Below, one piece after another: positions 524 through 61,345 of a stretch of 64,000 bases of DNA. This DNA is from an uncultured Dokdonia sp. GTDB taxonomy: Bacteria > Bacteroidota > Bacteroidia > Flavobacteriales > Flavobacteriaceae. Position numbers and translations under genes: made by a program. Each line of letters opens with the position of its first letter. The stretch's first letter is position 1. The stretch spans positions 372,001 to 436,000 of the forward strand of contig NZ_CANMDS010000002.1 of NCBI RefSeq assembly GCF_947496725.1, in the 5' to 3' direction. Under the pieces are notes generated by a model. That model was not told the DNA's origin. It did not search any database and saw only the letters and a program-made list of their open reading frames with translations.

Positions 524-543
524 TACGCTTTCGCGAAAGCGTA
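524..543. repeat. Iterated palindrome copy 1 (20 bp perfect)
   Basis: TACGCTTTCGCGAAAGCGTA, intergenic between divergent sod and addA, followed by ATAATAC. Confidence 0.97.
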
Positions 544-655
544 ATAATACTCAACAAATTAACGCAACTATTTAGAAAATAATGGTCTTACACATATAGA
601 CACTCATTTTAGGGGTATTATATGTGTCTATATTTTTATTAGTTTGATGTTTGAC

Positions 656-681
656 AAGGCCACCTTTTATGGGTGGCTTTT
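656..681 (+). other. Terminator/attenuator-like hairpin just before addA
   Basis: A 9-bp stem (arm 656-664, loop TTTTATG, arm 672-680, one G-T pair) followed by only one more T. It ends 15 nt before the addA ATG. No plus-strand gene upstream needs a terminator here, so an attenuator or leader structure for addA is possible. Confidence 0.4.
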
Positions 682-695
682 GCTATATTAGTGCT

Positions 696-3600
696 ATGAC
701 CGAAAAGAATAGCTTTATTGTTCTCAATGCTTCTGCAGGATCTGGTAAAACATACAGCCTTGTAAAGCAATATATCACTACACTTCTTAAAAGTAATGAC
801 CCTAACAAGTTTAGACATTTACTAGCCATCACTTTTACAAACAAGGCTGTGGCAGAGATGAAAAACAGGGTGCTAGATACTCTTAAAGCTATAGGTGATT
901 ATAATGGTGTTGACAAACCAGATATGCTAGAAGACCTAGCAGTAGCTAGTAATATGCCCGTAAATGTTGTGGTAAAAAAAGCTAAGGAAATCCTCAATAG
1001 GATTCTCCATAATTATGCGGCTTTTGATATTGTTACTATCGATACACTTACACATAGAATTATACGCACCTTTGCAAAAGATCTTAATATCTCTAGCAGT
1101 TTTGAAGTGTCTCTAGATCAAAAAACGCTTAGTGCGCAGGCCGTAGATGCTCTTGTGGCAAAGGTGGGTGTAGATGACACCATTACTAAGGTGCTCGTAG
1201 ATTTTGCTCTTGAAAAGGCAGATGATGATAAAAGCTGGGATATAAGCAGAGATTTACTAGAAATTGCCTCACTACTACATAATGAAAATGACCTTAAGGC
1301 GCTGGACCGACTTAAAAGCAAGTCGCTATCAGACTTTGATGCACTTGCTACATTTCTTAACACTCAAATTAAGTCCCTAGCTAGCAAGCAACAAGAAATG
1401 GGCAAAAACCTTATAGATTTTATACACGGGTTAGGTCTTGATCAAAAAAGTTTTGCCAGCGGCTACTATTATAAATTTATAGTCCAAGTGGCAAGTGGTG
1501 TAAGAGGTCTAAAATATTCTGGTTCTGGTTATAAAGACAATATTGAGGAATATGCGTTCTATACAAAAGGACAAAAAGATGATATAAAATCCATAATAGA
1601 TGCAAACAGGCAGCGCTTTGTAGATGACTTTTTAAAACTAAAATCTCTTGCCGGTAAGCAAAAAAAGTATGAGGCTTTTCGCTCTAAGCTTATACCCCTT
1701 TCTGTTTTACACCTTATTAAAAAGGAGCTCGACCTTATTAAAGAAGAAGAAAATGTATTGCTCATATCAGATTTTAATGCCCTTATCTCAAAATCGCTTA
1801 AAGATCAACCTGCTGCATTTTTATATGAGCGACTAGGTGAGCGTTATACAAACTACTTTATAGACGAGTTTCAAGACACCTCTGTGATGCAGTGGGATAA
1901 CCTTGTCCCACTTATAGATAATACCATAAGTAGTGCTTCTGGTGATGAAGTAAGTAATTCTCTACTACTAGTGGGTGATCCAAAACAAGCAATTTATAGA
2001 TGGCGTGGTGGAGAGGCAGAGCAATTTATAGCTCTCAGTCATCAGATTAATCCTTTTACCACAGAGGCTACTGTGGCTCGCTTAGATACTAACTATAGAA
2101 GTAATGAGTCTATTATTCATTTTAATAATAGCTTTTTTACGCACCTCTCCACTCATTTTGATAATGAGCTTTATGGTGAGATATATAAAGCAGATAACTC
2201 ACAGGGTACAAACAGCAAAAAAAATGGGTACGTATCTCTAGAGTTTATTGATTATGAAAATAATACCGAAGCAGATCTACTCTACCCTGAGCGTATTCTA
2301 GAAATCATAAAGAACGTCACTTCACAAGGCTATTTACACAGTGATATTTGTATACTTACCAGAAGTAATAAGCACGGCACTCATATAGCACAAGTTTTAC
2401 AAGAGGCGGGTACAGAGGTGGTATCTTCAGAGAGTTTACTTATCGAAAATTCTCCTACCGTGCAGTTTATACACAACTTTATCACAATGCTTTCTTTTCC
2501 AAAACAGTTAGAGTATAGACTTGCTGTACTTTACTTTTTGGGAGCACATTATAATATAAAAGACACCCATAATTTTTACAGTACTCATACGGCTAGCACA
2601 TTATCAGAATTTTTAGAGCAACTCAAAGCTTTTGATGTTTTTATACATCTTGATTACTTAAAAAACCTCTCTCTTTATGAGTATATAGAGTATATCATTC
2701 GCTCCTTTTACTTAGCCCCATTATCTGACGCCTATGTTGTGGCATATCTTGACCTAGCATATAATTATGCACAGGGTAATAGTGGCGGCATTCTAGGTTT
2801 TATAGACTACTGGGAAGAAAAAAGAGAGAAAGCAAGCATTGTAGCTCCAGCACAAGATAGCGCTGTACAGATTATGAGTATACATAAATCCAAAGGGCTA
2901 GAATTTCCAGTTGTAATTTATCCTTATGCAGACTCAGACTTATATCGTACTCGTGGTGAGCACCAGTGGTATCCTATGGAAAATGAAGATATAAGTGATT
3001 TTGAGACACTAATGGTTCCGCATAATAATGCACTTAATGATTTTGGAGAGGCGGGTACTACTCTTTTTGAAAAAAGAAATAATGAGCAACAATTCGACAC
3101 CATTAATGTTTTATATGTGGCTCTTACTAGAGCTTCTGAGCGGTTATATGTGTTATCACGCTTTCGCGAAAGCGTAAAAAAAATAGGTTCATACAGCGAC
3201 CTTTTTATCGAATACTTGCAGACACATAATATATGGAATAACGACCAGCGAGTTTACTCCTTTGGGACAGAAACCTCTGCTCATAAAAAAGACCAAGCAA
3301 GCGATTATACACCCTTTGTACCCACCATACGGTCTACAGCCAAAGAAGAGTTAGGTATACAGGTAATTACTCAGGCTAGTTTTTTATGGGATGAGAAAAA
3401 GCAAAATGCAATTACTTACGGTAATCTCATACACGAGTTAATGGCTGCTGTTACAGACCACAATACAATTACAGCCGTAGTAGACGATGCTGTGCGCCAC
3501 GGTATCATACCTCAAGAAAGCCGAAAGGTTATGACGGGCATAATGAATCAGGTTGTCTCACATCCAGACCTAAAGGTATGTTTTGAAGAAGAAAACACGG

Positions 3601-3833
3601 TTTATAATGAGCGTATGATACTGGCTAGCGATGGTCGTTTTCATATACCTGATCGTGTTGTAGTTACTCCAGACGGAAGCACTATAATTATAGACTATAA
3701 AACGGGTGTCCATAACGACTCTTATGCAAAACAACTTGCAACCTACGCCGGGTTATATCAAGAGATGGGTTATAAAGTAACTCACAAACTGCTTGTTTAT
3801 ATAGACAGCACGATAGAAGTAGTCGCGGTTTAA
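696..3833 (+). CDS. addA: AddA/RecB-like helicase-nuclease (UvrD superfamily 1A helicase with C-terminal nuclease)
   Basis: Predicted helicase-nuclease subunit that processes double-strand breaks for RecA-dependent repair. The start at ATG 696 places Walker A (NASAGSGKT) at residues 11-19; an in-frame TTG at 651 would overlap the upstream hairpin. Further SF1 motifs follow in order: DEFQDTS (Walker B), GDPKQAIYRWRGG, TNYRSN, MSIHKSKGLEFP and VALTRASERL. Near the C-terminus GNLIHELM and IPDRV...IIIDYKTG form a PD-(D/E)XK nuclease core. About 1045 residues, usual for flavobacterial AddA-like proteins. Its probable partner addB lies 2.8 kb downstream, separated by kbl and ompA. A palindrome copy (3158-3175) lies just after the ALTRASERL motif, encoding RFRES. 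Confidence 0.9.
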   Translation: MTEKNSFIVLNASAGSGKTYSLVKQYITTLLKSNDPNKFRHLLAITFTNKAVAEMKNRVLDTLKAIGDYNGVDKPDMLEDLAVASNMPVNVVVKKAKEILNRILHNYAAFDIVTIDTLTHRIIRTFAKDLNISSSFEVSLDQKTLSAQAVDALVAKVGVDDTITKVLVDFALEKADDDKSWDISRDLLEIASLLHNENDLKALDRLKSKSLSDFDALATFLNTQIKSLASKQQEMGKNLIDFIHGLGLDQKSFASGYYYKFIVQVASGVRGLKYSGSGYKDNIEEYAFYTKGQKDDIKSIIDANRQRFVDDFLKLKSLAGKQKKYEAFRSKLIPLSVLHLIKKELDLIKEEENVLLISDFNALISKSLKDQPAAFLYERLGERYTNYFIDEFQDTSVMQWDNLVPLIDNTISSASGDEVSNSLLLVGDPKQAIYRWRGGEAEQFIALSHQINPFTTEATVARLDTNYRSNESIIHFNNSFFTHLSTHFDNELYGEIYKADNSQGTNSKKNGYVSLEFIDYENNTEADLLYPERILEIIKNVTSQGYLHSDICILTRSNKHGTHIAQVLQEAGTEVVSSESLLIENSPTVQFIHNFITMLSFPKQLEYRLAVLYFLGAHYNIKDTHNFYSTHTASTLSEFLEQLKAFDVFIHLDYLKNLSLYEYIEYIIRSFYLAPLSDAYVVAYLDLAYNYAQGNSGGILGFIDYWEEKREKASIVAPAQDSAVQIMSIHKSKGLEFPVVIYPYADSDLYRTRGEHQWYPMENEDISDFETLMVPHNNALNDFGEAGTTLFEKRNNEQQFDTINVLYVALTRASERLYVLSRFRESVKKIGSYSDLFIEYLQTHNIWNNDQRVYSFGTETSAHKKDQASDYTPFVPTIRSTAKEELGIQVITQASFLWDEKKQNAITYGNLIHELMAAVTDHNTITAVVDDAVRHGIIPQESRKVMTGIMNQVVSHPDLKVCFEEENTVYNERMILASDGRFHIPDRVVVTPDGSTIIIDYKTGVHNDSYAKQLATYAGLYQEMGYKVTHKLLVYIDSTIEVVAV
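3158..3175. repeat. Iterated palindrome copy 2 (18 bp perfect, inside addA)
   Basis: ACGCTTTCGCGAAAGCGT, read as cgc-ttt-cgc-gaa-agc (RFRES) in addA; followed on the right by an A run. Confidence 0.97.
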
Positions 3834-3841: not shown

Positions 3842-3857
3842 TAAAAAACAAACACAT

Positions 3858-6645: not shown

Positions 6646-9336
6646 ATGCAAAGTTTTATAGACGTAGTACTAAATAAAGAACAGAACATTGAGGGTGCTA
6701 ACCTTATATTTATTGTTCCCAGTAGAAGAGCAGGTAATACACTTAGAAAGAAGGTTGCTGTACGTGCAAGTAAGACTTCATTTGCACCACAAATATTTTC
6801 TATAGAAGAATTTATATCCCATATTACTGGATTAAAGTCTGCGAGCAATGTAGATCTAATTTTTAATCTTTACGAAAGCTATACAGAAGTTGTAGAAAAA
6901 GAGAAATTAGTTCCTTTTCAAACTTTCTGTGGATGGGCGCAATCCATACTTAGTGATTTTAATGAAGTAGATAGATTTTTACTCGATCAAAAAGAAGTCT
7001 TTAATCATCTCAAAGATGTAAAAGAGTTATCAGAACACTGGTCTTCTTCTACAAATGAGATTGTTGTAAATTATATAGACTTCTGGAACAACTTGCTTAA
7101 GATTTATACAGTTTTTTGCGAGAAATCTCTGCGTACAGATGCTGTACATCAAGGTTATATTTATAGACAAGCTGTAGAAGTTATAGAACACTACATATCC
7201 TCATCTTTAGAAATACGTCACGTCTTTCTGGGTTTTAACGCTCTCAACACCGCAGAGCAACAAATTATACAAGCTATACTAGCCTCTGGAAATTCTGAGA
7301 TATATTGGGATACAGAAAAGTCATTTGTCAAAAACCCATATCACGAGACTAACCTCTTTATAAAAAAGTATAAGAAAGACTGGGCATATTATAGTACTAA
7401 AGACTTTTCTTGGAGTTTTGATAACTACAGCATACCAAAAGTAATTAATACATACGCTTGCTCTCAAGATATACTACAGGCTAAGACACTTGGGTCTATA
7501 TTAGAAAGTATACCTCAAAAAAGCTTGTCGAGTACTGCAATAGTTCTAGGTGATGAGGCCCTATTGTTACCAGTTCTTAATGCGTTGCCCACCCATATAC
7601 ATAAGGTGAACATTACAATGGGAATTCCGATAGGTAAAACACCCACGGCTTCATTCTTTGATCAATTACTTTCATTAAAGAAAAACCCACAAAAAAGCGG
7701 CTATTATTTTAAGGAGGTTTTAAAGATACTACGTAACCCTATAACACAATCACTGCTAGGTGATACGGCAACAGTACTTCAAGAAGAAATTATCACAAAA
7801 AATCTCATATATGTTTCACTAGAAGATATTCTTACTAAAGTGAAACCAACTGACCTACAGATCACAAAAACGCTCTTCTTAGATTGGGACAATCAGCCCA
7901 AAAGTGCAGTTACAAATTGCCTTAATATCATACAAGAATTAAGAACTAGTTATGATGAAAGCAAAGACGCACTGCAAGTAGAGTACTTGTATGGGTTTTA
8001 CGTAGCATTTAATAAGTTAAAAACGCTTATGGATGATAGAGACCATATAACAGATGTTGCTACATTTATTCTCTTCTATCGTGATATTATATCTTCAGAA
8101 ACGATAGACCTTAAAGGTGATCCAGATGAGGGGTTACAGATAATGGGGGTGCTAGAATCTCGTGTGCTAGACTATGAGCACGTAATACTCACCTCGGTTA
8201 ATGAGGGGATACTTCCTTCTGGAAAGAGTCAAAACTCTTACATACCCTATGATTTAAAAAAGTTATATGACCTGCCTACCTATTCAGAAAAAGATGCTGT
8301 ATATGCCTATCACTTCTATCATTTATTACATAGGGCGCGCACTGCAGATTTACTATATACCACTCACAGCACAGGGCTGGGTAGTAGTGAGCAAAGTAGA
8401 TTTATAAGACAGATAGAAGAAGAAGGAATACATACCATACATAAATATACAGTTACTCCCGCTTCACAACCCGCCACAATAACTGCACAAAAAATAGAAA
8501 AAACGCCAGAGGTAATCACAAAATTATCTCGCCTTTTTAAGAAAGGTATATCTCCCTCTGCACTCACCACCTACTTACGTAATCCAGTAGTATTTTATGA
8601 ACGATACATCCTGGGCATAGATAATAGTGATGAGGTAGAAGAAACTGTAGCGGCAAATACAATGGGAACCATTGTACATAATACGCTAGAGGAGCTTTAT
8701 AAACCGCACATAGGTATTGTGCTTACAGAAGATATTTTGAAAAATCTCATAAAAGGTATCGAACCAGAGGTGCGTAATCAATTTAAACTAGAGTATGGCC
8801 TCACTCATATACAAGAAGGTAAAAATAAGATCATCTACGCGGTGATATGTCGCTACGTTCACAATTACCTAAAAAGAGAGATATCCCTGCTTAAAAAGGG
8901 TGATGTGGTCATAATACAGGCGGTAGAAGATGATTTGCGAGACATACCCCTCACAGACACTGTTTCCCTAAGAGGTAAAGTAGATCTTGTAGAGCAACGC
9001 AATGGAAATCTCAACATAGTAGATTATAAAACTGGTAAAGTAGCACAGACAGATCTCAACCTAAAATCATATGAAGACTTACTCCTCCCAGAAGGTAAGT
9101 TTGAGAAAGCCTTTCAAGTCCTTATGTATGCTTATATGCTCAATAAGAAAAAGCCCCTAAGCTTCCCTGTAAGTGCTGGGATTATTTCGTTTAAAAATCT
9201 ACAATCAGGTTTCTTAGCTTTCAAATACAATAAAAATCAAGAGATCACAGCAGAAACACTTTTGGAGTTTGAGGCCGTTTTAAAAAGATTGGTAAAAGAA
9301 ATATTAGACCCTTCTATTCCCTTTACAGAAAGGTAG
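6646..9336 (+). CDS. addB: AddB-like nuclease/inactivated-helicase subunit
   Basis: Predicted partner of the addA product in double-strand-break resection. 896 residues. The N-terminus LIFIVPSRRAGNTLRKK resembles the AddB/RecC helicase-like fold with a degenerate nucleotide site. The C-terminal third has a PD-(D/E)XK nuclease: SPSALTTYLRNPVVFYERYILG near residue 640, MGTIVHNTLEELY with the nuclease His, then LRGKVDLVEQ and IVDYKTGK near residue 785. AddB proteins often bind an iron-sulfur cluster; the four-Cys pattern is not evident here. ATG is only 11 nt after the ompA terminator, leaving no room for its own promoter, so expression probably depends on read-through. Confidence 0.85.
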   Translation: MQSFIDVVLNKEQNIEGANLIFIVPSRRAGNTLRKKVAVRASKTSFAPQIFSIEEFISHITGLKSASNVDLIFNLYESYTEVVEKEKLVPFQTFCGWAQSILSDFNEVDRFLLDQKEVFNHLKDVKELSEHWSSSTNEIVVNYIDFWNNLLKIYTVFCEKSLRTDAVHQGYIYRQAVEVIEHYISSSLEIRHVFLGFNALNTAEQQIIQAILASGNSEIYWDTEKSFVKNPYHETNLFIKKYKKDWAYYSTKDFSWSFDNYSIPKVINTYACSQDILQAKTLGSILESIPQKSLSSTAIVLGDEALLLPVLNALPTHIHKVNITMGIPIGKTPTASFFDQLLSLKKNPQKSGYYFKEVLKILRNPITQSLLGDTATVLQEEIITKNLIYVSLEDILTKVKPTDLQITKTLFLDWDNQPKSAVTNCLNIIQELRTSYDESKDALQVEYLYGFYVAFNKLKTLMDDRDHITDVATFILFYRDIISSETIDLKGDPDEGLQIMGVLESRVLDYEHVILTSVNEGILPSGKSQNSYIPYDLKKLYDLPTYSEKDAVYAYHFYHLLHRARTADLLYTTHSTGLGSSEQSRFIRQIEEEGIHTIHKYTVTPASQPATITAQKIEKTPEVITKLSRLFKKGISPSALTTYLRNPVVFYERYILGIDNSDEVEETVAANTMGTIVHNTLEELYKPHIGIVLTEDILKNLIKGIEPEVRNQFKLEYGLTHIQEGKNKIIYAVICRYVHNYLKREISLLKKGDVVIIQAVEDDLRDIPLTDTVSLRGKVDLVEQRNGNLNIVDYKTGKVAQTDLNLKSYEDLLLPEGKFEKAFQVLMYAYMLNKKKPLSFPVSAGIISFKNLQSGFLAFKYNKNQEITAETLLEFEAVLKRLVKEILDPSIPFTER

Positions 9337-9338
9337 TT

Positions 9339-9358
9339 TACGCTTTCGCGAAAGCGTA
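9339..9358. repeat. Iterated palindrome copy 3 (20 bp perfect)
   Basis: TACGCTTTCGCGAAAGCGTA directly after the addB stop codon, followed by CTAAAAAC, the same right flank as the copy at 12261. Confidence 0.97.
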
Positions 9359-9403: not shown

Positions 9404-9417
9404 ATATGTTCTAAGGG

Positions 9418-12260: not shown

Positions 12261-12276
12261 CGCTTTCGCGAAAGCG
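12261..12276. repeat. Iterated palindrome copy 4 (16 bp perfect)
   Basis: CGCTTTCGCGAAAGCG between convergent MATE and antiporter genes, followed by TACTAAAAAC as at 9339. Confidence 0.97.
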
Positions 12277-14337: not shown

Positions 14338-14357
14338 TACGCTTTCGCGAAAGCGTA
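14338..14357. repeat. Iterated palindrome copy 5 (20 bp perfect)
   Basis: TACGCTTTCGCGAAAGCGTA with a following A run, 34 nt before the metallo-hydrolase ATG. Confidence 0.97.
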
Positions 14358-17002: not shown

Positions 17003-18850
17003 ATGAAAAACGCTTATAAATTACTGGTGATGGTATCGTTGTTCGCTTTCGCGAAAGCGTATGCACAAAACAACACCTCTTACTGGCAACAACACGTCGA
17101 CTACGAGATGGAGATCGATATGAATGTAAAAAACTATCAGTACGATGGTAAACAGAAGCTAGTGTATACAAACAACTCACCAGAGACGCTAGACCGTGTG
17201 TACTATCACCTTTACTTTAACGCATTTCAACCAGGTAGTGAGATGGATGTGCGCTCGCGCAACATTGCAGATCCAGATGGTCGTGTTAAAGATCGCATAA
17301 GCAAGCTAGGGCCAGATGAGATAGGTTTTATAAAAGTAAACAGCCTTACTCAAGATGGTAAAAAATTAAACTATGAGGTAGCCGGTACTGTGCTAGAAGT
17401 ACAACTCGCTGCACCTATCGCACCAGGAGCAAGTACAACCTTTAATATGGACTTTAAAGGACAAGTACCTGTACAGATACGCCGTAGTGGTCGTAACAAT
17501 AAAGAAGGTGTCGCACTATCTATGACACAGTGGTACCCAAAAATGGCCGAATATGATTTTGAAGGCTGGCACGCACATCCTTATATCGCTCGTGAGTTTC
17601 ACAGTGTATGGGGAGACTTTGATGTAAAAATCACAATAGATGAAAACTACACAGTAGGAGGTACAGGCTATTTACAAGATCCAGAAGATATGGGTCACGG
17701 GTATGCTGGCACTTCTATGAAGCCTGGTAAAAACGCAAAGCGTGGTAAATTACAATGGCACTTTAAAGCACCAAACGTACACGACTTTACCTGGGCTGCA
17801 GATCCTGAGTATGTACACGATGTAATTATGGGAGAAAATGATACAGAGCTACACTTCTTCTATAAAAACAAAGAGTCTATAAAGGCAAACTGGAAAAAAC
17901 TACAGCCTATGACGGCAGACTTACTTGCCTTTTATAACAAGCACGTAGGTACATATCCTTACAAGCAGTACTCTGTGATACAAGGTGGAGATGGTGGTAT
18001 GGAGTATGCAATGAGTACACTTATCACTGGTGAGCGCAAGTTTGGGAGCCTTTTTGGTGTGACTGCACACGAGATGGCACATACTTGGTTTCAATTCTTA
18101 CTGGCAAGTAATGAGGCAAAACACGAGTGGATGGATGAAGGATTTACCTCATATATCTCTGCTCTGGCCGAAAATGAACTTACAGGAGGTGATAACCCTA
18201 ATCCAGTTGCTGGGTCATACAGAGGGTACTATTACCTTGTAAAAAGCGGTAAAGAACAACCACAAACTACACACGCAGACCGTTACAACGAGAATATGCC
18301 TTACAGCATCGCTGCATACAGTAAAGGAGCTGTATTTCTTGCACAACTAGGATACGTTATAGGAGAAGATAATCTTAAAAAAACGCTCAAAAAATACTTT
18401 GATGATTTTGCTTTTAAGCACCCTACGCCTAACGATATTAAACGTACGGCAGAGAAGGTTTCTGGTATGGAGCTAGACTGGTATCTTACAGACTGGACAC
18501 AAACTACAAATACCATAGACTACGGTATCACAAGCGTTGAGGCAGATGGTAATAAAACAAAGGTTACGCTTACCCGAAAAGGGTTAATGCCTATGCCTAT
18601 AGATCTTTATGTAGATATGGCAGACGGTTCTCAAAAATCATACTATATGCCACTGCGTATGATGCGTGCCGAAAAACCAAACCCAACGCCAAACATTACT
18701 CGTGAGCAACTCGCAGACTGGCCTTGGACAAACCCTACATATACCTTTACAATAGACGCACCTATAAGTAAAGTAAAGATGATGAAGATTGATCCTACCT
18801 CAAAAATGGCAGATATTGATCAAACAGATAATGTGTGGGAAAACAAGTAA
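17003..18850 (+). CDS. M1-family metallopeptidase (aminopeptidase-like), secreted
   Basis: Zinc aminopeptidase of the gluzincin M1 family. ATG at 17003 gives MKNAYKLLVMVSLFAFAKAYAQ, a signal peptide; the longer in-frame reading from 16967 runs through a terminator. Zinc site: His356-Glu357-x-x-His360 (HEMAHTW) and Glu379 18 residues later (MDEGF). The substrate motif is a GGMEYAMSTLI (G-x-M-E-N type with Tyr). 615 residues. The N-terminal beta domain starts near residue 30. The signal peptide itself is partly encoded by a palindrome copy (17044-17059, AFAKA). Confidence 0.92.
   Translation: MKNAYKLLVMVSLFAFAKAYAQNNTSYWQQHVDYEMEIDMNVKNYQYDGKQKLVYTNNSPETLDRVYYHLYFNAFQPGSEMDVRSRNIADPDGRVKDRISKLGPDEIGFIKVNSLTQDGKKLNYEVAGTVLEVQLAAPIAPGASTTFNMDFKGQVPVQIRRSGRNNKEGVALSMTQWYPKMAEYDFEGWHAHPYIAREFHSVWGDFDVKITIDENYTVGGTGYLQDPEDMGHGYAGTSMKPGKNAKRGKLQWHFKAPNVHDFTWAADPEYVHDVIMGENDTELHFFYKNKESIKANWKKLQPMTADLLAFYNKHVGTYPYKQYSVIQGGDGGMEYAMSTLITGERKFGSLFGVTAHEMAHTWFQFLLASNEAKHEWMDEGFTSYISALAENELTGGDNPNPVAGSYRGYYYLVKSGKEQPQTTHADRYNENMPYSIAAYSKGAVFLAQLGYVIGEDNLKKTLKKYFDDFAFKHPTPNDIKRTAEKVSGMELDWYLTDWTQTTNTIDYGITSVEADGNKTKVTLTRKGLMPMPIDLYVDMADGSQKSYYMPLRMMRAEKPNPTPNITREQLADWPWTNPTYTFTIDAPISKVKMMKIDPTSKMADIDQTDNVWENK
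17044..17059. repeat. Iterated palindrome copy 6 (16 bp perfect, in signal-peptide codons)
   Basis: CGCTTTCGCGAAAGCG read as AFAKA within the M1 peptidase signal peptide. Confidence 0.97.
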
Positions 18851-22137: not shown

Positions 22138-23412
22138 TTACCCCTTCCCTATTTCCAGTAAACTATCCCACTGGGTTGTATATCGTGGGCTGCGCTCCTC
22201 TTTAATGAGTTCCCATTCCTTATTACTTTTTGAAGTGCCAGATAATCCTGCCGAAACTGTAGACTTCCCGTAGCGATTATTTATCGCGTCAAAGGCTTTT
22301 ATGAGGCGCTTATCTCCCGTCGCTTCGGGCATAAAGAGATTACCTTGTACTTGCTCCTCTGGTATGAGACCTAAAAGGTCTACGCCCACTTTTTTGTACT
22401 TAAATCCCGGCTTATAAATTCGCTTTAAGGCTTTCTTAGCTTCCACGATAAGCATAAATGTATCATTAGTAGGGACAGATAAGGTTACAATGGTCTTATC
22501 TGCGTGTTGCACATCATTTGTGCTGTGATAGTTTGTAGTGAGATATATACGCAACTGTGTACAACAACATTTTTGCGAGCGTAGCACCTCGCTTACTTCA
22601 CTTATATAGTAAGCGCAGGCTTCTTCTATTTGTGGTAGGTTATCCAGTTTTTTTCCAAAGGATTTTGCCGTTCCTATTGCTTTTTTCTTTCGCGGAAGCG
22701 TTTCAAAAGGAATACAAGATTCTCCATTAAGCTCCCTCCACAAGCGCTCCCCTACTACGGTCATTTCCTTACGTACCCACGCCAGTGGTACTTCTGTAAA
22801 TGCATAAGCTGTAAAGACACCTATGTGAGCGAGACGCTCCACGTGCTTTTTACCTAGCCCCCAGATGTCTTTTGTTTCTGCCCAGTTAAGTGCCTCTATG
22901 CGTCGCTCCTCGGTATCCATCACATACACGTGGTCAAAGTGTGCTACCTTTTTTGAAATACGGTTTGCAAGTTTTGCCAGTACCTTAGTAGGTGCAATGC
23001 CTACTCCTACGGGTATCCCAGTGCGCTGTACAATTGTATTTTTAATTTGATGACCGTAGGCATTAAGATCTACGTGAGTCATCCCAGAGAGATCTACAAA
23101 AGACTCATCTATACTGTACACCTCAACGGCAGGTGAGAACTCGCGCAGTACATTCATCACGCGGTCAGACATATCTCCATACAAGGTGTAATTTGATGAG
23201 AAGAGCGTGACATCGTTTTGTGCCAGCAACCCTTTTATTTTAAAAAGTGGGTCGCGATATGGGATATGTGTGAGTGCCTTTGCTTCTTTATTTTTTGCTA
23301 TGATACAGCCATCATTATTACTCAATACAGCGACAGGTCTACCCTTTAAGTCAGGTCTAAATACCTGCTCACAAGAGGCATAAAAACTATTACAATCTAC
23401 CATCGCAATCAT
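22138..23412 (-). CDS. umuC: Y-family DNA polymerase, UmuC subunit of Pol V
   Basis: Translesion DNA polymerase. 424 residues. The polymerase core shows MVDCNSFYASCEQVF (first catalytic Asp) and SIDESFVDLSG (Asp-Glu pair near residue 100), PVGVGIAPTKVLAKLAN, and the HhH segment DIWGLGKKHVERL. A little-finger domain and the UmuC-type C-terminal tail follow (about residue 350 on). Overlaps the end of umuD by 4 nt, so the two are translated as an operon. A degenerate palindrome copy is at 22687-22701. Confidence 0.94.
   Translation of the reverse strand: MIAMVDCNSFYASCEQVFRPDLKGRPVAVLSNNDGCIIAKNKEAKALTHIPYRDPLFKIKGLLAQNDVTLFSSNYTLYGDMSDRVMNVLREFSPAVEVYSIDESFVDLSGMTHVDLNAYGHQIKNTIVQRTGIPVGVGIAPTKVLAKLANRISKKVAHFDHVYVMDTEERRIEALNWAETKDIWGLGKKHVERLAHIGVFTAYAFTEVPLAWVRKEMTVVGERLWRELNGESCIPFETLPRKKKAIGTAKSFGKKLDNLPQIEEACAYYISEVSEVLRSQKCCCTQLRIYLTTNYHSTNDVQHADKTIVTLSVPTNDTFMLIVEAKKALKRIYKPGFKYKKVGVDLLGLIPEEQVQGNLFMPEATGDKRLIKAFDAINNRYGKSTVSAGLSGTSKSNKEWELIKEERSPRYTTQWDSLLEIGKG
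22687..22701. repeat. Degenerate palindrome copy in umuC
   Basis: CTTTCGCGGAAGCGT, one change from the core. Confidence 0.6.
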
Positions 23413-23841: not shown

Positions 23842-23855
23842 GCTTTCGCGAAAGC
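23842..23855. repeat. Iterated palindrome copy 7 (14 bp perfect)
   Basis: GCTTTCGCGAAAGC between divergent umuD and rnpA; T run on the left, that is, the A-rich flank points to the minus strand. Confidence 0.95.
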
Positions 23856-25079: not shown

Positions 25080-25097
25080 ACGCTTTCGCGAAAGCGT
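25080..25097. repeat. Iterated palindrome copy 8 (18 bp perfect)
   Basis: ACGCTTTCGCGAAAGCGT in the short gap between the DUF4349 gene and the protease gene. Confidence 0.97.
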
Positions 25098-28100: not shown

Positions 28101-28118
28101 ACGCTTTCGCGAAAGCGT
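28101..28118. repeat. Iterated palindrome copy 9 (18 bp perfect)
   Basis: ACGCTTTCGCGAAAGCGT between convergent genes, followed by AAAAATTC. Confidence 0.97.
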
Positions 28119-29957: not shown

Positions 29958-30357
29958 AGTGCTCGTCTCTATAAAGACGCTACAAAAATACAATTGTTAC
30001 ACTAATTTTAAGATTTTTTTAAGAAAAATAGAAATAAGTGTTAATTTTAAAGTTTTGATTTTTAAAATGTTACCTTAAAAGGGATGTTTTAAGTAATATG
30101 AGATTAAGATTTACTGTTTCCGTAATTTTGAGAATGACTGTTATAAAATGTTTTAAGGCATAGCTTTTGCACAGTACTCTTTACATATCAAAATGTCTTG
30201 ACTTAAAGAGTATAAAATTTTAATGCTCTTGCTACATACTCTTATAAGTAGCTCGTTTCATCTTTTCGCGAAAGCGTAATAATCACAAACCCTGTTTCTA
30301 AAAGGTTATAAAAACTTAAAATTTTAACAGAAATACTGAAGTTGAACATTTTAAGAC
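29958..30357. other. Gene-free AT-rich stretch before rnr
   Basis: About 400 nt with no plausible coding frame. It contains a degenerate palindrome copy at 30263-30278 and leads into the rnr promoter. Nothing else recognised. Confidence 0.6.
30263..30278. repeat. Degenerate palindrome copy
   Basis: TTTTCGCGAAAGCGTA, followed by ATAATCAC, the same right flank type as copy 1. Confidence 0.75.
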
Positions 30358-32594: not shown

Positions 32595-32608
32595 GCTTTC
32601 GCGAAAGC
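32595..32608. repeat. Iterated palindrome copy 10 (14 bp core)
   Basis: TAC-GCTTTCGCGAAAGC-AAAAAA, 7 nt after the rnr stop. Confidence 0.95.
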
Positions 32609-35355: not shown

Positions 35356-35375
35356 TACGCTTTCGCGAAAGCGTA
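35356..35375. repeat. Iterated palindrome copy 11 (20 bp perfect)
   Basis: TACGCTTTCGCGAAAGCGTA followed by AAAAAATAC, 71 nt before glnS. Confidence 0.97.
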
Positions 35376-42237: not shown

Positions 42238-42257
42238 TACGCTTTCGCGAAAGCGTA
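42238..42257. repeat. Iterated palindrome copy 13 (20 bp perfect)
   Basis: TACGCTTTCGCGAAAGCGTA with T run on the left, upstream of gltX (minus). Confidence 0.97.
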
Positions 42258-48562: not shown

Positions 48563-48580
48563 ACGCTTTCGCGAAAGCGT
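48563..48580. repeat. Iterated palindrome copy 14 (18 bp perfect)
   Basis: ACGCTTTCGCGAAAGCGT followed by AATATAAAG, in the mnmG leader. Confidence 0.97.
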
Positions 48581-50543: not shown

Positions 50544-51377
50544 ATGAAAAAGGATTTTAAAGTTAAAGATCATTCTGTAACAGGAGAAGAATTTGTGCTT
50601 ACATATGATGAGAAATTACATATGTATTACACGATGCCAAAACCTACTTTGGGAAGTTTACCTTCATATTATGAAAGTGATGATTATATATCTCATACAG
50701 ATGGTAAACGTTCTTTATTTGAAATTGCTTATCAAACCGTAAAAGGAATTACGCTTTCGCGAAAGCGTAAACTCCTCAACAAATATCATCCATCTCTGGG
50801 TCGTATTTTAGATATTGGCGCCGGAACTGGAGATTTTTTAGAACATCTCTCTAAACATAACTGGAATACTTCTGGAATTGAACCTAGCATAAAAGCCAAA
50901 TCATTAGCTCAAAAAAAAGGACTCAATTTAAAATCTACTATTGAAGAAGTAGGGGAGGAGCAATTTGATGTGATTACAATGTGGCACGTTTTAGAACACG
51001 TTTATGATCTACAAGGACAAATAGATTGGCTTAAAACACATCTCACTAAAAATGGAACCGTGTTTATAGCTGTCCCAAATTATGAATCTTATGATGCATT
51101 TCATTATAAAGAATTTTGGGCTGCATATGATGTACCTCGTCATTTATATCATTTTTCTGAGCAATCTATAAAAATGTTATTTCAATTAAGTGATTTAAAA
51201 CTGGTAGAGGTTTTACCTATGAAGTTTGATGCTTTTTACGTGAGCCTACTTTCTGAAAAATATACAACTGGTAAGATGAATTATTTTAAGGCTCTTACTA
51301 CTGGTCTACGCTCAAACAGGAGAGCAAAAGCAAATGGAGGTTACTCTTCTCAAATTTATGTCTTAAAACACGCTTAA
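50544..51377 (+). CDS. Class I SAM-dependent methyltransferase
   Basis: Methyltransferase of unknown substrate, Methyltransf_23-like. 277 residues. SAM-binding motif I LDIGAGTGDFLEHL near residue 88, post-I GIEPS, and motif IV FDVITMWHVLEHVYD near 140; then FIAVPNYESYD. The N-terminal 80 residues carry a small beta-rich part (GEEFVLTYDEKLHMYYTMPKP). A palindrome copy at 50750-50769 reads TLSRKR. It starts 37 nt after mnmG, with a parS-like site between. Confidence 0.85.
   Translation: MKKDFKVKDHSVTGEEFVLTYDEKLHMYYTMPKPTLGSLPSYYESDDYISHTDGKRSLFEIAYQTVKGITLSRKRKLLNKYHPSLGRILDIGAGTGDFLEHLSKHNWNTSGIEPSIKAKSLAQKKGLNLKSTIEEVGEEQFDVITMWHVLEHVYDLQGQIDWLKTHLTKNGTVFIAVPNYESYDAFHYKEFWAAYDVPRHLYHFSEQSIKMLFQLSDLKLVEVLPMKFDAFYVSLLSEKYTTGKMNYFKALTTGLRSNRRAKANGGYSSQIYVLKHA
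50750..50769. repeat. Iterated palindrome copy 15 (20 bp perfect, in methyltransferase)
   Basis: TACGCTTTCGCGAAAGCGTA read as acg-ctt-tcg-cga-aag-cgt (TLSRKR), before the SAM motif. Confidence 0.97.
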
Positions 51378-55456: not shown

Positions 55457-57070
55457 ATGAACATAAAAAATAATCTTTTCTTGCTTTGCTCTCTAGCGCT
55501 AGGTGCACTATCGTTACAAGCACAAGACACATTATCATACGAGGCTTACAAGCGCAAGCAACCGGCTAGTAATCAAGTAAAGACTCAGGTATTGCAACCG
55601 GATACCATTACTATAATAAATGAGGTGAAGGCAAATGTAGTATCTCAAGACCTACCTCAAACAGTTATTGCTACTCAGGTAAAAGATTCAATAACATTTA
55701 GGCTAGAAGATGAACCACAGGCAGCACTCATAGATATGCGCTGGCGTCAAGAACTTGCCAGAATGGATCTTTATGACTCTATAAATGCTATAAGAAACAG
55801 CCAGACCTACCTACCAGAGGTAAGGCTTGAGTTACCCACAGATACCTTAAAAAAGCGACTCGCAGCTATAAATGCGCGCACACCCTTTAACGTCGAGTAT
55901 AATCCCTCACTAGAGAGCGTGATAAACCGTTATTTAAAACGCCATAAACCTACTATGGAGAAGTTAATGGCTGTGAGCCAGTTTTACTTCCCTATGTTTG
56001 AAGAACGACTAGACAGGTATGACATTCCTCTTGAGATGAAATATCTCGCTATTGTAGAGAGTGCATTAAGACCTAGAGCAAAATCTAGAGTTGGAGCAAC
56101 AGGACTCTGGCAATTTATGTTTGCAACTGGTAAAATGTTTGATCTAGAGGTAAACAGTTATGTAGATGACCGTATGGATCCTATCGCTGCAACAGAGGCG
56201 GCTTGTGCCTACTTATCGCAACTATATAATATACACGGCGACTGGGACCTTGCCCTAGCATCTTACAACTCTGGCCCTGGTAATGTTTCTAAAGCCATAA
56301 GACGCTCTGGAGGTTATAAAAATTACTGGAATATACGTCAGAATTTACCTAGAGAAACCGCAGGATACGTACCAGCATTTCTAGCAACAATGTACCTTTT
56401 TGAATATGCAGATGAGCACGGCTACACTCCAGAAAAAGCACCTGTAAATTACTTTGCGACAGACACGATACACGTGAAACAAACTATTGCGCTAGACCAA
56501 GTATCTAGCATTGTGGGCGTACCTCTTGAGATTGTACAGTTCTTAAACCCGCAATACAAGTTGGACATCATTCCTGTGATAGAAAATAAGAAGTATTATG
56601 TGAGACTACCTATAGAGAGCGTAGGTAAGTTTGTACAAAATGAGGCAGCTATTTACGCTTTCGCCAAAGCGGAATTAGACAAAAGAGAAAAGCCTTTACC
56701 AGAGGTACTAGCGGCGAGCTCGCAAGTAAGATACCGCGTGCGTAGTGGTGATTACCTAGGTAAAATTGCAAATAAATATGGCGTGCGTGTAAGCCAGATC
56801 AAAAAGTGGAACAACCTGCGATCTAACGCACTTAAAATAGGGCAGCGACTCACAATATACCCTAGAAAACCAGTGACTAATAATGCTGTTGCGAGCAAGA
56901 AGAAAAGTGTCTCTCTTAAAGGGAAAAAGACCTATACCGTTCAAAATGGAGATTCCCTCTGGAAGATTGCAAATAAATTTCCAGGAGTAAGTGTTGAGAA
57001 TATTAAAGTTTGGAACGATATTAGTAGCTCTAAACTCAAACCAGGAATGAAATTGCGTGTGTCAAAATAA
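55457..57070 (+). CDS. LysM-containing lytic transglycosylase (MltD-like)
   Basis: Envelope murein lytic transglycosylase. ATG at 55457 gives MNIKNNLFLLCSLALGALSLQAQD, a signal peptide; TTG 55442 and ATG 55448 are alternatives. 537 residues. SLT domain at about residues 165-300: ESALRPRAKSRVGATGLWQFMFATGK with the catalytic Glu, and LASYNSGPGNVSKAI. Two LysM domains end the protein: RVRSGDYLGKIANKYGVRVSQIK and YTVQNGDSLWKIANKFP. A degenerate palindrome copy (56654-56673) encodes YAFAKA in the linker. Confidence 0.93.
   Translation: MNIKNNLFLLCSLALGALSLQAQDTLSYEAYKRKQPASNQVKTQVLQPDTITIINEVKANVVSQDLPQTVIATQVKDSITFRLEDEPQAALIDMRWRQELARMDLYDSINAIRNSQTYLPEVRLELPTDTLKKRLAAINARTPFNVEYNPSLESVINRYLKRHKPTMEKLMAVSQFYFPMFEERLDRYDIPLEMKYLAIVESALRPRAKSRVGATGLWQFMFATGKMFDLEVNSYVDDRMDPIAATEAACAYLSQLYNIHGDWDLALASYNSGPGNVSKAIRRSGGYKNYWNIRQNLPRETAGYVPAFLATMYLFEYADEHGYTPEKAPVNYFATDTIHVKQTIALDQVSSIVGVPLEIVQFLNPQYKLDIIPVIENKKYYVRLPIESVGKFVQNEAAIYAFAKAELDKREKPLPEVLAASSQVRYRVRSGDYLGKIANKYGVRVSQIKKWNNLRSNALKIGQRLTIYPRKPVTNNAVASKKKSVSLKGKKTYTVQNGDSLWKIANKFPGVSVENIKVWNDISSSKLKPGMKLRVSK
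56654..56673. repeat. Degenerate palindrome copy in the lytic transglycosylase gene
   Basis: TACGCTTTCGCCAAAGCGGA, still reads YAFAKA. Confidence 0.7.
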
Positions 57071-58531: not shown

Positions 58532-58541
58532 GTTTTTAATC

Positions 58542-58556
58542 ACGCTTTCGCGAAAG
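58542..58556. repeat. Degenerate palindrome copy (12-bp core intact)
   Basis: ACGCTTTCGCGAAAG after the DUF4837 gene; right arm lost. Confidence 0.8.
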
Positions 58557-58570
58557 AAAAGTGATACACA

Positions 58571-58607
58571 CAAAAAACCGCATAACTCAAGGAGCTATGC
58601 GGTTTTT
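58571..58607. terminator. Terminator between DUF4837 gene and tatA
   Basis: CAAAAAACCGCATA / TATGCGGTTTTTTG inverted repeat. Confidence 0.9.
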
Positions 58608-58628
58608 TGTATAGTATAAAACTAGATT

Positions 58629-58820
58629 TTATTTTTTCTCTTCTATAAGATCGTCATCTTCATCTTTTGATGCCTTCTTAAATTCTTTAATACCGCCTCC
58701 TAAGCCGCGCATCATTTCAGGGATTTTTTTACCTCCAAAAAGTAGTAAAACCACTAATACAATAAGTCCTATTTGCCAAGGGCCTACCATTCCTAAAAGT
58801 ATACTTAATGTGTTCATCAT
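58629..58820 (-). CDS. tatA: Sec-independent protein translocase TatA/E
   Basis: Pore-forming subunit of the twin-arginine pathway. 63 residues. One transmembrane helix, [18 protein letters not shown] (about 13-30), an FGGKKIPEM motif and an amphipathic helix ([16 protein letters not shown]), then an acidic tail. A second Met follows the first. The neighbouring tatC is not in the window. Confidence 0.93.
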
Positions 58821-58919
58821 CTTCTGTTTTAGAAAAACAAAGATAGTAAGAAAACAAACATATGAACGTTAAAGTCATAAAAAGGACATAATAAGGAGCT
58901 TTGTAGTGTGTGATGGCAA

Positions 58920-58935
58920 TTTTCGCGTAAGCGTA
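58920..58935. repeat. Degenerate palindrome copy
   Basis: TTTTCGCGTAAGCGTA followed by ATAATAGG, the same flank type as copies 1 and 30263. Confidence 0.6.
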
Positions 58936-58969
58936 ATAATAGGTCTACACTATATCACATCTAAAAAAG

Positions 58970-58977
58970 TATATTTG
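58970..58977 (+). promoter_or_regulatory. -7 promoter element of the M23 peptidase gene
   Basis: TATATTTG, 8 nt before the ATG at 58986, so the message may be leaderless. Confidence 0.5.
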
Positions 58978-58985
58978 TAAATCAG

Positions 58986-59852
58986 ATGGCAGAAAAGAAA
59001 ACTAAAAAGAAGAAAATAGCAAAAAAGCTACTACATAAGTACCGCTTAGTGATACTTAATGAAGATACTTTTGAGGAGCGTATTTCTTTTAAACTCACAC
59101 GGCTTAACGTGTTTATACTAGTGGGAGTATCTGCTATTGTACTTATAGCATTAACCACATTACTCATTGCGTTTACACCACTTAGAGAGTATATCCCGGG
59201 TTACTCAAGTACAAAGCTTAAACGCAACGCAACCTTACTAGTCGCAAAGACAGACTCGCTAGAAAATGCGATACGAGTAAACGAGCAGTACTACTCATCC
59301 ATACGCAGAGTACTAAGTGGCGATGTAGCGGCGCTAGAGTTTGATAGAGATTCTATACGAGATGCGGTTTTTAATGAAGAAGATATTTATGTGCTACCTA
59401 GCAAGGAAGATAGCTTGCTTAGACAAACGGTAGAGCAAGAAGATAAATACAATGTATTTGATAAAGCTGTAGAGGATACAGATTTCTCATTATTTCCGCC
59501 AGTGCAAGGGACCATTACATCTACTTATAATGCTGCCTTAAAGCATTATGCGATAGATATTGTAACAGAAAAAGATGCCCCTGTAAAAGCAGCGGCCGAT
59601 GGTACGGTGATTTTTGCAGAGTGGACCGCAGAGACGGGTCACGTACTTATTATAGAGCACCCTAAAAACTTGATTACCGTTTATAAACACAATGCTTCTC
59701 TTAACAAGGAGCAAGGTGATCTTGTACAAGCGGGTGAAGTTGTGGCAACTGTAGGTAATACAGGAGAACTCACAACAGGACCACATTTACATTTTGAATT
59801 ATGGAGTAATGGATACCCCATTAACCCAGTTAATTTTATTGATTTTAACTAA
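58986..59852 (+). CDS. M23 (LytM) family metallopeptidase
   Basis: Envelope peptidoglycan endopeptidase or amidase activator. 288 residues. A very basic N-terminus (AEKKTKKKKIAKK) precedes a single transmembrane helix (FILVGVSAIVLIALTTLLIAF, about 37-57), then a coiled-coil-like stretch and the LytM domain from about residue 165. Zinc ligands HYAIDIV (HxxxD) near 186 and HLHFE near 268 are intact, with GNTGELTTGPHLHFE as the family block, so it is probably active. Its stop overlaps the next start by one base. Confidence 0.92.
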   Translation: MAEKKTKKKKIAKKLLHKYRLVILNEDTFEERISFKLTRLNVFILVGVSAIVLIALTTLLIAFTPLREYIPGYSSTKLKRNATLLVAKTDSLENAIRVNEQYYSSIRRVLSGDVAALEFDRDSIRDAVFNEEDIYVLPSKEDSLLRQTVEQEDKYNVFDKAVEDTDFSLFPPVQGTITSTYNAALKHYAIDIVTEKDAPVKAAADGTVIFAEWTAETGHVLIIEHPKNLITVYKHNASLNKEQGDLVQAGEVVATVGNTGELTTGPHLHFELWSNGYPINPVNFIDFN

Positions 59853-61345
59853 TGTCATTAAAGTCTTTTGGCGCAAAGATTTTTGCCTCTTACATCACGG
59901 GTAAAATTAAGAAGTGGGCAGATCACCCTATAGAAACTCAACAAAAGGTTTTTGAGAAGCTCATAGATGCTGCGCAGTATACAAACTTTGGTAACGATCA
60001 CCATTTTGATAAAATAAAAACCCATCAAGATTTTGTAAAACACGTACCTGTAAGAGATTATGAAGCGCTTAAGCCTTATGTAGATAAGATGGTTGCTGGT
60101 GAGGTAGATATTTTATGGCCTGGTAAGCCCTTGTACTTTGCAAAAACATCTGGTACCACATCTGGAGTAAAGTACATACCTCTCACAAAAGATAGTATGA
60201 AGACGCACCCTAACAGTGCGCGTAATGCCATATTATCATATATCGCAGAGACGGGTAATACTAGCTTTGTAGATGGTAAAATGATTTTTTTACAAGGAAG
60301 CCCCATAATGACCGAAAAAAACGGCATCAAGTTAGGGCGTCTATCTGGTATAGTAGCTCACTATGTGCCTAACTATCTTCAGAAAAATAGACTTCCTAGC
60401 CTAGAGACTAACTGTATAGAAGACTGGGAGCAAAAAGTCGATAAGATTGTAGAGGAGACTATAGATCAAGATATGACCCTTATAGGAGGGATTCCGCCGT
60501 GGGTACAGATGTATTATGAGCGTCTTATCCAGAAGAGTGGTAAAACTGTGGGAGAGCTCTTTAAAAACTATCAACTCTTTGTGTATGGTGGGGTAAATTA
60601 TGAGCCATACCGTCGCAAGCTAGAAGACCTTATAGGGAGAAGTGTAGACAGTATTGAGTTATATCCTGCAAGTGAAGGGTTTTTTGCCTTTCAAGACTCA
60701 CAGACTGAGAAAGGAATGCTCCTGCAGCTAGATAACGGAATTTTTTATGAGTTTATAAAAGCAGATGAGTTTTTTAACGAAAACCCTACAAGAATAACCC
60801 TCAAAGATGTACAGCTAGATGTAAACTATGTAATGATTATATCTACCACTGCTGGCCTGTGGGCTTATAACATAGGCGATACAGTAATATTTACCTGTCT
60901 CAAACCCTATCGTGTGATGGTCTCTGGTCGTATTAAGCACTTTATTTCGGCATTTGGGGAGCACGTGATAGGTAAAGAAGTAGAGCAGGCTATGCTTGAG
61001 GCATCTGCAGGTACAGATATCAAGGTGACCGAGTTTACCGTAGCACCACAAGTAGCACCACAATCTGGACTGCCTTATCACGAGTGGATGATAGAATTTG
61101 AAAATGAGGGGACGGGAGATTTAAACGCTTTCGCGAAAGCGCTAGACACCTCACTACAAGCTCAAAATTCTTACTACTATGATCTTATAGAGGGTAAAGT
61201 ACTACAACCTCTTAAAATCACGAGAGTCACTAAAGACGGCTTTAACGAGTATATGAAATCACAGGGAAAACTGGGGGGGCAAAACAAGATCCCGAGACTC
61301 TCTAATGATAGAAAAATAGCAGATCTTCTTACAGTAAAGCAGTAA
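59852..61345 (+). CDS. GH3-family acyl-acid-amido synthetase-like protein
   Basis: Adenylate-forming enzyme of the GH3 auxin-responsive family, named after plant enzymes that conjugate amino acids to acids such as auxin and jasmonate; the bacterial substrate is unknown. 497 residues. The ATP site FAKTSGTTSGVKYIPLTKDS lies at about residues 91-112; later YPASEGFFAFQD near 270 and the GRIKHFISAFGEHVIG region near 360 are family blocks. A palindrome copy at 61126-61141 reads AFAKA in a C-terminal loop. ATG overlaps the M23 stop codon, so translation is coupled. Confidence 0.88.
   Translation: MSLKSFGAKIFASYITGKIKKWADHPIETQQKVFEKLIDAAQYTNFGNDHHFDKIKTHQDFVKHVPVRDYEALKPYVDKMVAGEVDILWPGKPLYFAKTSGTTSGVKYIPLTKDSMKTHPNSARNAILSYIAETGNTSFVDGKMIFLQGSPIMTEKNGIKLGRLSGIVAHYVPNYLQKNRLPSLETNCIEDWEQKVDKIVEETIDQDMTLIGGIPPWVQMYYERLIQKSGKTVGELFKNYQLFVYGGVNYEPYRRKLEDLIGRSVDSIELYPASEGFFAFQDSQTEKGMLLQLDNGIFYEFIKADEFFNENPTRITLKDVQLDVNYVMIISTTAGLWAYNIGDTVIFTCLKPYRVMVSGRIKHFISAFGEHVIGKEVEQAMLEASAGTDIKVTEFTVAPQVAPQSGLPYHEWMIEFENEGTGDLNAFAKALDTSLQAQNSYYYDLIEGKVLQPLKITRVTKDGFNEYMKSQGKLGGQNKIPRLSNDRKIADLLTVKQ
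61126..61141. repeat. Iterated palindrome copy 16 (16 bp perfect, in GH3 gene)
   Basis: CGCTTTCGCGAAAGCG, read as AFAKA. Confidence 0.96.

Follow-up and report, generated by a model that had tools for sequence, protein, structure and literature searches.

The window analysed here, a stretch of 64,000 nucleotides from a 3.29-Mb Dokdonia assembly (Flavobacteriaceae; G000), carries 16 perfect copies of the 14-bp palindrome GCTTTCGCGAAAGC (Table 1), and the question is what kind of word this is and what could read it. The sequence-only reading had also counted 16 copies, with coordinates that were 0-3 bases too low, and had judged the word too frequent for chance and similar in style to HIP1. As evident from the whole assembly, which contained 905 perfect copies compared with none of a reversed control word, the iteration is genome-wide, HIP1-like in style and far above Markov expectation. 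A total of 532 strand hits were observed in an 864-kb sample, where Markov models of order 2-4, trained with the motif masked, expected 0.0002-0.0021. The window itself gave 20 matches at up to two mismatches, compared with a mean of 0.14 and a maximum of 1 in 100 dinucleotide shuffles.

Table 1. Copies of the word and candidate reader genes in the window. G numbers denote genomes; gene contexts are from a simple gene caller.
Feature	Position	Strand	Context
AddA/RecB-like helicase-nuclease, UvrD-type helicase and PD-(D/E)XK	651..3833	+	candidate reader; start probably ATG 696
AddB-like protein with PD-(D/E)XK nuclease domain	6646..9336	+	candidate reader subunit
Palindrome	527..540	.	divergent intergenic, upstream of AddA-like gene
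Palindrome	3160..3173	.	within AddA-like gene
Palindrome	9342..9355	.	convergent; 5 bp past AddB-like stop codon; then tRNA-Ala (-) at 9415
Palindrome	12262..12275	.	convergent intergenic; missing in G005 and G007, whose alignments have gaps there
Palindrome	14341..14354	.	divergent intergenic
Palindrome	17045..17058	.	tandem intergenic
Palindrome	23842..23855	.	divergent intergenic; retained despite diverged flanks
Palindrome	25082..25095	.	tandem intergenic; reduced to a single unit (one-sided) in G005
Palindrome	28103..28116	.	convergent intergenic
Palindrome	32595..32608	.	tandem intergenic
Palindrome	35359..35372	.	divergent intergenic
Palindrome	37364..37377	.	coding, frame 0 (AFAKA); changed in G009
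Palindrome	42241..42254	.	divergent intergenic
Palindrome	48565..48578	.	tandem intergenic; one-sided in G008, G009
Palindrome	50753..50766	.	coding; one-sided in G008, absent in G003
Palindrome	61127..61140	.	coding, frame 0
Single directional unit TTTCGCGGAAGC	22688..22699	+	
Single directional unit TTTCGCGAAAGC	30264..30275	+	
Single directional unit (GCTTTCGCGAAA on + strand)	58544..58555	-	
Single directional unit TTTCGCGTAAGC	58921..58932	+	
Broken copy GCTTTCGCCAAAGC, neither unit intact	56657..56670	.	perfect in G016, G002

The true unit of the word is the asymmetric 5'-TTTCGCGNAAGC-3', mostly followed by G (474 of 532 palindrome flanks, with another base in 58). The palindrome consists of two overlapping opposite units, and the 14-bp site serves both directions, which would be an unusual way of serving two directions within so short a stretch. 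The 587 strand hits of TTTCGCGNAAGC in the 864-kb sample comprised two in each of 266 palindromes and 55 singles, and of 36 copies of the 14-mer with two mismatches, 34 retained an intact 12-mer. The bidirectional form is maintained: where the variable base N was A, the opposite unit was also present at 266 of 293 loci, and 905 of the 1145 loci of G000 (~80%) were bidirectional genome-wide. Where N was not A, GC was found on the other side in 2 of 28 units, which disfavours a symmetric dimer operator in which one half is degenerate. Four of the five copies previously described as degenerate proved to be intact single directional units, and only the fifth (56657) was broken, in both units, by a single change; directional singles had been missed as such in the sequence-only reading.

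One-mismatch copies of TTTCGCGNAAGC occurred at about background level, with 17 compared with 12 for a control word and 587 perfect hits. The 864-kb sample combined 464 kb of G000 with 400 kb of G016, which are ~97% identical, 96 kb of G016 being near-identical to G000. Taken separately, the two genomes showed the same picture: G000 had 137 palindromes, 27 singles and 10 near misses versus 5 for the control word, and G016 had 129 palindromes, 28 singles and 7 near misses versus 7. Part-words outside the motif were fewer than an order-2 model expects and showed no deficit against a maximal-order model, and avoidance of part-words was dropped because the deficit was limited to the order-2 comparison. 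Eleven fixed bases at about 1000 places, almost without near misses, would imply that each place is under strong, continuing selection or biased conversion, and the reader of such a word would have to be both stringent and important.

The sites were evenly spaced, with a coefficient of variation (CV) of 0.466 compared with 0.986 ± 0.10 for random placement (0 of 5000 as even), a regularity that had escaped notice before. Twenty samples around a closed chromosome held 3-9 sites each, with no trend with position. Single units occupied the gaps that palindromes left: across 300 kb, the median distance from a single to the nearest palindrome was 1566 bp (18 singles) versus 860 ± 216 bp at random (0 of 1000), and the six singles in 84 kb (the window and the next 20 kb) gave 2396 versus 1163 bp (P 0.019). 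We found no replication polarity, as G016 singles with N other than A split 52/57 by strand, and the best polarity split among 100 of 109 such singles listed was similar to permuted data (P 0.41). A replication-polar, KOPS-like word was rejected for this lack of polarity, and polarity would in any case be senseless for a palindrome. Twelve of the 16 window copies were intergenic (5 divergent, 3 convergent and 4 tandem) and four lay in genes; the intergenic enrichment reported earlier stood, while its count of 11 of 16 was revised.

On each strand, the ~20 nt lying 3' of the palindrome were G-poor whatever the gene context, alike for coding sense, coding antisense, tandem, divergent and convergent sites, and the 5' side of each strand was G/T-rich and C-poor. 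These arms had not been described in the sequence-only reading. There was no covariation between the two arms and there were no position-specific bases within them. Because covariation was lacking and all contexts were alike, the arms represent strand composition, a DNA-level feature, and a longer inverted repeat was rejected. A transcript-level element or terminator was also rejected, since the arms were alike in all gene contexts; the earlier exclusion of a terminator holds, as divergent and coding sites exist and A rather than T prevailed after the palindrome. The arms of single units were weaker than those of palindromes and not restricted to one side, those of G230 were weak, and arm sequence was not conserved (71% versus 79% for farther flanks).

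Alignments show that the sites are conserved at orthologous places. Among 39 site copies aligned in more distant Dokdonia, both units were kept in 32, one in four and none in three. Most of the informative gains and losses were in-place substitutions, many of them in gapless alignments and some with short gaps nearby. Mobile insertion is disfavoured because most differing sites differed by substitutions only, the exception being the intergenic site at 12262, where alignment gaps covered the site in G005 and G007. The sequence-only reading had named a chance-level frequency, or an origin as fragments of one mobile element, as what could overturn it; instead, the frequency was far above Markov expectation and most informative changes were substitutions rather than insertions.

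Abundance of the word is confined to three genera. All 17 Dokdonia congeners searched carried GCTTTCGCGAAAGC in 369-903 copies each, and two further Flavobacteriaceae genera were rich in it; the other Flavobacteriaceae genomes sampled (n=391) contained 0-19 copies each, and no sampled genome outside the family had more than one. Two word-poor genomes revealed no alternative iterated palindromes in 60 kb each, and searches of open-licence PMC papers found no comparable word in Bacteroidota. We are somewhat inclined to regard the word as a self-complementary, all-or-none, orientation-read address at about 1000 places per genome, with a putative reader specific to the three genera, and as the first Chi-type signal that works in both directions or, alternatively, the first uptake word known in Bacteroidota. 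If it is a Chi or an uptake signal, it would open end-processing or self-DNA recognition in this phylum.

Since the tested carriers had no RecC match and possessed an AddAB-type helicase-nuclease, AddAB is the candidate reader; none of the 32 genomes tested had a match to the RecC family. Tentatively, as a possibility that falls short of being probable, we read the word as a Chi-like signal recognised directionally by a translocating enzyme, for which the AddAB-type pair in the window is the candidate, and we infer that AddAB recognises it. The enzyme would move along the DNA, read one strand and recognise the word in the right orientation only, and the sites would act as stop or switch signals, as Chi does for RecBCD. 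Whichever side a double-strand end came from, it would reach a word in the correct orientation within a few kb, and there nuclease action would be turned down and RecA loaded. RecA has a GT preference, and the G/T-rich, C-poor 5' arms would suit its loading. The directional unit, the maintained bidirectional form, the singles in gaps, the even coverage and the DNA-level arms are consistent with the Chi-like reading, and the word shares with the Chi sites of RecBCD and AddAB its directional, DNA-level and chromosome-wide character at about one per few kb, with a helicase-nuclease of the right class encoded here. In contrast, known Chi words have 5-8 nt, whereas the Dokdonia word is longer, with 11 fixed positions, and is self-complementary. 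It is also abundant in just three genera, whereas an AddB-like match was found in 390 of 397 genomes of the family, and its single units have no replication polarity, unlike E. coli Chi, whose replication-coupled polarity is not known to be general. The weaker, two-sided arms of singles, the weak arms of G230 and the unconserved arm sequence also argue against it, as do the scores of the window's AddA and AddB proteins, which were under the NCBIfam equivalog cut-offs, and the finding of 0 carrier-specific AddB columns (4 carriers versus 30 other AddBs, a low-power test in which random sets average 0.05). Sequence searches gave no solved relatives of AddB, and the long branches of carrier AddBs were unusable, as the Dokdonia protein had 28 of the 30 comparison sequences as its best hits.

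The close rival of the Chi-like reading is a DNA uptake sequence, doubtful in our view, in which word-bearing DNA would be taken up preferentially and biased transformation would have spread and purified the word. Uptake words (DUS and USS) are known in Neisseriaceae and Pasteurellaceae, and the Dokdonia word resembles them as a long, directional, clade-limited word with hundreds of evenly spaced copies, few near misses and in-place gain, also within genes. Uptake is compatible with how long and how dense the word is, with its even spacing and clade restriction and with its preference for intergenic DNA, and the ComEC family was found in 9 of 9 carriers, though also in 22 of 23 non-carriers. 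The scarcity of near misses (17 versus 12 for the control word) fits as well; for the kingDUS of K. oralis, allowing one mismatch is reported to add 21% (PMC3630211). In competition tests, R. columbina, which belongs to the same bacterial group as Dokdonia, favoured its own DNA, and no motif was identified (PMC7965970). Unlike in DUS and USS, the Dokdonia word occurs mostly as overlapping opposite pairs, which uptake has no evident reason to favour. Moreover, the type IV pilus/T2S ATPase family PF00437, the sole pilus component looked at, is missing in most carriers tested, being over cut-off in 3 of 9, the window's genome not among them, and in 6 of 23 non-carriers, with weak sub-cut-off matches in nearly all. 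The consulted sections of PMC7965970 do not state whether Riemerella has a pilus, and a missing ATPase is therefore no decisive argument against uptake.

The remaining explanations concern the duplex, the single strand or a methylase. A chromosome-organising protein, such as a nucleoid or SMC-type loader, could bind the sites and form even chromosome domains, in line with the even spacing, the intergenic preference and the lack of a positional trend in 20 samples of the closed chromosome; it is unlikely, since such a binder is expected to tolerate near misses, which were at about background, the unit is asymmetric, and strand-skewed arms without position-specific bases are unexpected for a duplex binder. 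The word might instead form a small single-stranded hairpin, CGC-GNAA-GCG with a GNRA-type loop, as a possible priming or ssDNA-processing signal. The variable N would then be loop position 2 above a 3-bp stem, the 13th base (G in 474 of 532 flanks) would be the outer stem partner, the fold predicted in silico agrees and the G-poor arms would keep the hairpin unobstructed. We nevertheless consider this improbable: palindromes are predicted to favour a longer hairpin (-6.3 versus -2.9 kcal/mol as DNA), the small hairpin beat shuffles by a modest margin only (33 and 15 of 200 equally good), the third loop base, A, was replaced by C in 10 of the 40 near-miss copies of G230, and the outer stem base varied (58 of 532 not G) opposite a partner that the motif keeps constant. 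A methylase-driven word made by methylation-directed mismatch repair, as in the HIP1 model, would suit a highly iterated, clade-specific palindrome, but it is highly improbable with an asymmetric unit and with the internal palindromes, which a methylation site inside the word might have enriched, not clearly raised outside the motif (TCGCGA, 110 observed versus 83-96 expected; CGCG, 1418 observed versus 1957 expected). HIP1 of cyanobacteria (GCGATCGC), whose function is unsettled, is likewise a palindrome iterated far above expectation across a clade; the Dokdonia word differs in its greater length, asymmetric unit, G-poor arms and unrelated hosts, and no internal methylase word is evident in it.

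The sequence-only reading had noted GAAA/TTTC halves flanking the palindrome, as in parS and Noc boxes. The likeness stands, while a symmetric operator of this type was not supported, as the unit is read asymmetrically, near misses were at about background, and hundreds of copies showed no clustering and no trend in the 20 chromosome samples. REP/BIME elements are short intergenic palindromes in hundreds of copies, similar to the Dokdonia sites, which differ in lying also inside genes and in being mostly gained and lost by substitution without insertion. The directional unit, the substitution origin and the context-independent arms together disfavour REP/MITE, terminator, parS/Noc and dimer operator explanations. 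A scan of viral contigs gave at least 120 stretches, of which four multi-copy ones were examined. The word may tag DNA derived from the carrier genera, as in metal-resistance islands in other genera.

The perfect 14-mer GCTTTCGCGAAAGC was counted 16 times in the window, and the genome-wide excess over Markov expectation implied by the sequence-only reading was borne out, with 532 strand hits in an 864-kb sample (464 kb of the window's assembly, G000, and 400 kb of a second Dokdonia genome, G016) compared with 0.0002-0.0021 expected at orders 2-4. The G000 assembly (3.29 Mb, 121 contigs) contained 905 copies and none of the reversed control, and 369-903 copies were present in each of the same-genus genomes searched (17/17). 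No description of the word was found in the open-licence PMC literature searched.

Upon inspection of the 14-mers in the 864-kb sample, we found 266 perfect copies, while those with one, two or three mismatches numbered 10, 36 and 36, respectively; an intact TTTCGCGNAAGC, an asymmetric 12-mer with one free position (N), or its complement was present in 34 of the 36 two-mismatch copies. This 12-mer gave 587 strand hits, 532 within palindromes and 55 as single units, in which N was A in 27, T in 12, G in 10 and C in 6. The opposite unit is impossible when N is not A, and of the 28 such cases only 2 had GC as the would-be flanking bases. The intact 12-mer in near-miss 14-mers and the rarity of GC in these cases show that reading of the word is asymmetric, the palindrome being a pair of overlapping units in opposite orientation. 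Bidirectional loci made up 266 of the 293 with N = A. Counting every locus, the share was 266 of 321 in the sample and 905 of 1145 across G000. One-mismatch 12-mers numbered 17 in the sample, compared with 12 for the control word. The unit results were alike in each Dokdonia sample on its own. Copies were looser in G230, a genome of a carrier (word-rich) genus (stretches L074-L076 and L324-L343), where 460 kb held 55 perfect and 27 one-mismatch 14-mers; its one-mismatch 12-mers numbered 40 versus 22 for the control, and two changes recurred among the 40, A9 to C (10 copies) and T1 to A (9 copies). Part-words such as TTCGCG occurred outside the motif 40 times in the 864-kb sample, against 106 expected at order 2 and 35 at maximal order. 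In the motif TTTCGC-GNAA-GCG, the free N occupies the second loop position of a GNRA-type mini-hairpin, whose G+C stem is 3 bp long.

Word-rich genomes were 6 of the 397 sampled in the Flavobacteriaceae, namely G000 and G011 of Dokdonia, three genomes of genus g11 (578, 664 and 609 copies) and one of genus g210 (408); the remaining 391 had 0-19 copies each, and of 395 genomes sampled across the phylum, those outside the family never exceeded one copy. The directional form was abundant in the same three genera as the palindrome (1030 and 1020 per strand in G000; control, 1 and 1). Seven genomes from five other genera (g62, g71, g96, g147 and g164) were intermediate, at about 18-38 directional hits on each strand; some of these genera also include members with lower directional counts. 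Among the matches listed, copies in low-copy genomes were clustered in several and unclustered in others. A 27-base site-plus-context pattern matched five stretches, including D. pacifica and D. sinensis. Four viral contigs (L214, L183, L197 and L237; 36-42% G+C), which may be phages or prophages from carrier genera, carried 2-3 palindromes each in the stretch examined.

The sites were evenly spaced: 92 sites over 300 kb (mean 3.2 kb, range 522-7322 bp; 91 when counted in separate pieces, as one spans a piece border) showed a CV of 0.466 compared with 0.986±0.10 for random placement, and 0 of 5000 random sets were as even. On the closed G016 chromosome, twenty 20-kb samples contained 3-9 sites each (variance/mean 0.29) with no visible positional trend; they totalled 129 sites where the whole-genome count predicts 109, which indicates site-poorer regions outside the sampled stretches. 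Single units lay far from palindromes, within the gaps between them. Palindrome density per kb was 0.17 in coding, 0.95 in tandem, 1.33 in divergent and 1.70 in convergent regions (from 263 sites, leaving aside 3 that lay at the edges of samples), and coding-region sites favoured the frame AFAKA (71/124). Of the singles inside coding genes, 15 lay in the sense orientation and 27 in the antisense (P 0.09); G016 singles with N not A were 52 forward and 57 reverse, and no replication polarity was seen among the 100 G016 singles listed.

The 20-bp palindrome is TAC-core-GTA, and outside it, at positions 4-19 to the 3' side on both strands, G fell to 3-9% compared with a background of about 19%. 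These G-poor arms were mostly C-rich, and the effect faded by about 25 nt. The skew was alike in coding sense, coding antisense, tandem, divergent and convergent contexts, equally strong in g11 (100 kb, 20 sites), weak in G230 (54 sites), and weaker, on both sides, at single units; no covariation between the two arms was found. We infer that the skew is a single-strand composition effect.

In comparison with G016 and another Dokdonia genome, G002, 238/238 core bases were kept at 17 aligned site copies (flanks 92%). In more distant Dokdonia, 525/546 core bases were kept, with flanks (21-60 nt) 79% and arms 71% identical; both units were kept in 32 of 39 copies, one in 4 and none in 3, a set neither complete nor independent, as unaligned sites were dropped and relatives share history. 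For sites carried by only one of two compared genomes, the alignments mostly revealed substitutions, many being gapless and some within genes, and some had short gaps near the site. The kept cores and substitution-type differences show that the sites are old and maintained and, so far as the alignments reveal, mostly made in place.

On this analysis, it is possible, if doubtful, that the word works most like a Chi signal, as a likeness and not a membership. This likeness, and that to an uptake word, rest on a directional word, valued both ways, with even intervals, all-or-none reading and strand-skewed arms. An AddA/AddB-like pair, a candidate reader of the word, is encoded within the window among palindromes (see the table), and their proximity proves nothing because of the site density. 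Among protein families, the pair gave helicase and PD-(D/E)XK matches, and its matches to the AddA/AddB models fell below equivalog cut-offs; an AddB match was found in 390/397 family genomes, and no RecC-family match in 32 genomes. Against a Chi-like role stand the word length, the narrow distribution and the lack of an AddB signature; no AddB column was common to four carriers and absent from 30 others, a weak test (random sets average 0.05). That the word instead works most like an uptake word, again in likeness only, is a slightly less probable reading. ComEC was found in 9/9 carriers and 22/23 non-carriers, and the T2SSE/pilus ATPase family exceeded its cut-off in 3/9 and 6/23, respectively. 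Two points tilt us towards Chi over uptake: the window's genome lacks the pilus ATPase, and opposite units stay together, which is of consequence if orientation matters. The nearest word in style is HIP1 (Elhai 2015, PMC4390886), for which Chi-like and uptake roles are considered in the paper.

Features of the window discussed in the text
Feature	Position	Observation
Palindrome	527	Just upstream of the AddA/AddB-like pair
Palindrome	3160	Inside the pair
AddB-like protein	6646-9336	Only about 52% identity between Dokdonia species G000 and G011
Palindrome	9342	Just after the pair
Site	12262	Gaps across the site in alignment with genomes G005 and G007

A palindrome pair spaced exactly 933 bp was found in five genomes. 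One such stretch, L064, was read in detail and resembles a copper/heavy-metal resistance island, with an efflux pump, P-type ATPases and a multicopper oxidase (translations judged by eye). Related stretches from other family genera (L059-L062, L065-L068 and L070-L072) contained perfect palindromes at corresponding positions, several of them paired at a distance of 933 bp. The word may therefore mark DNA originating in carrier genera.
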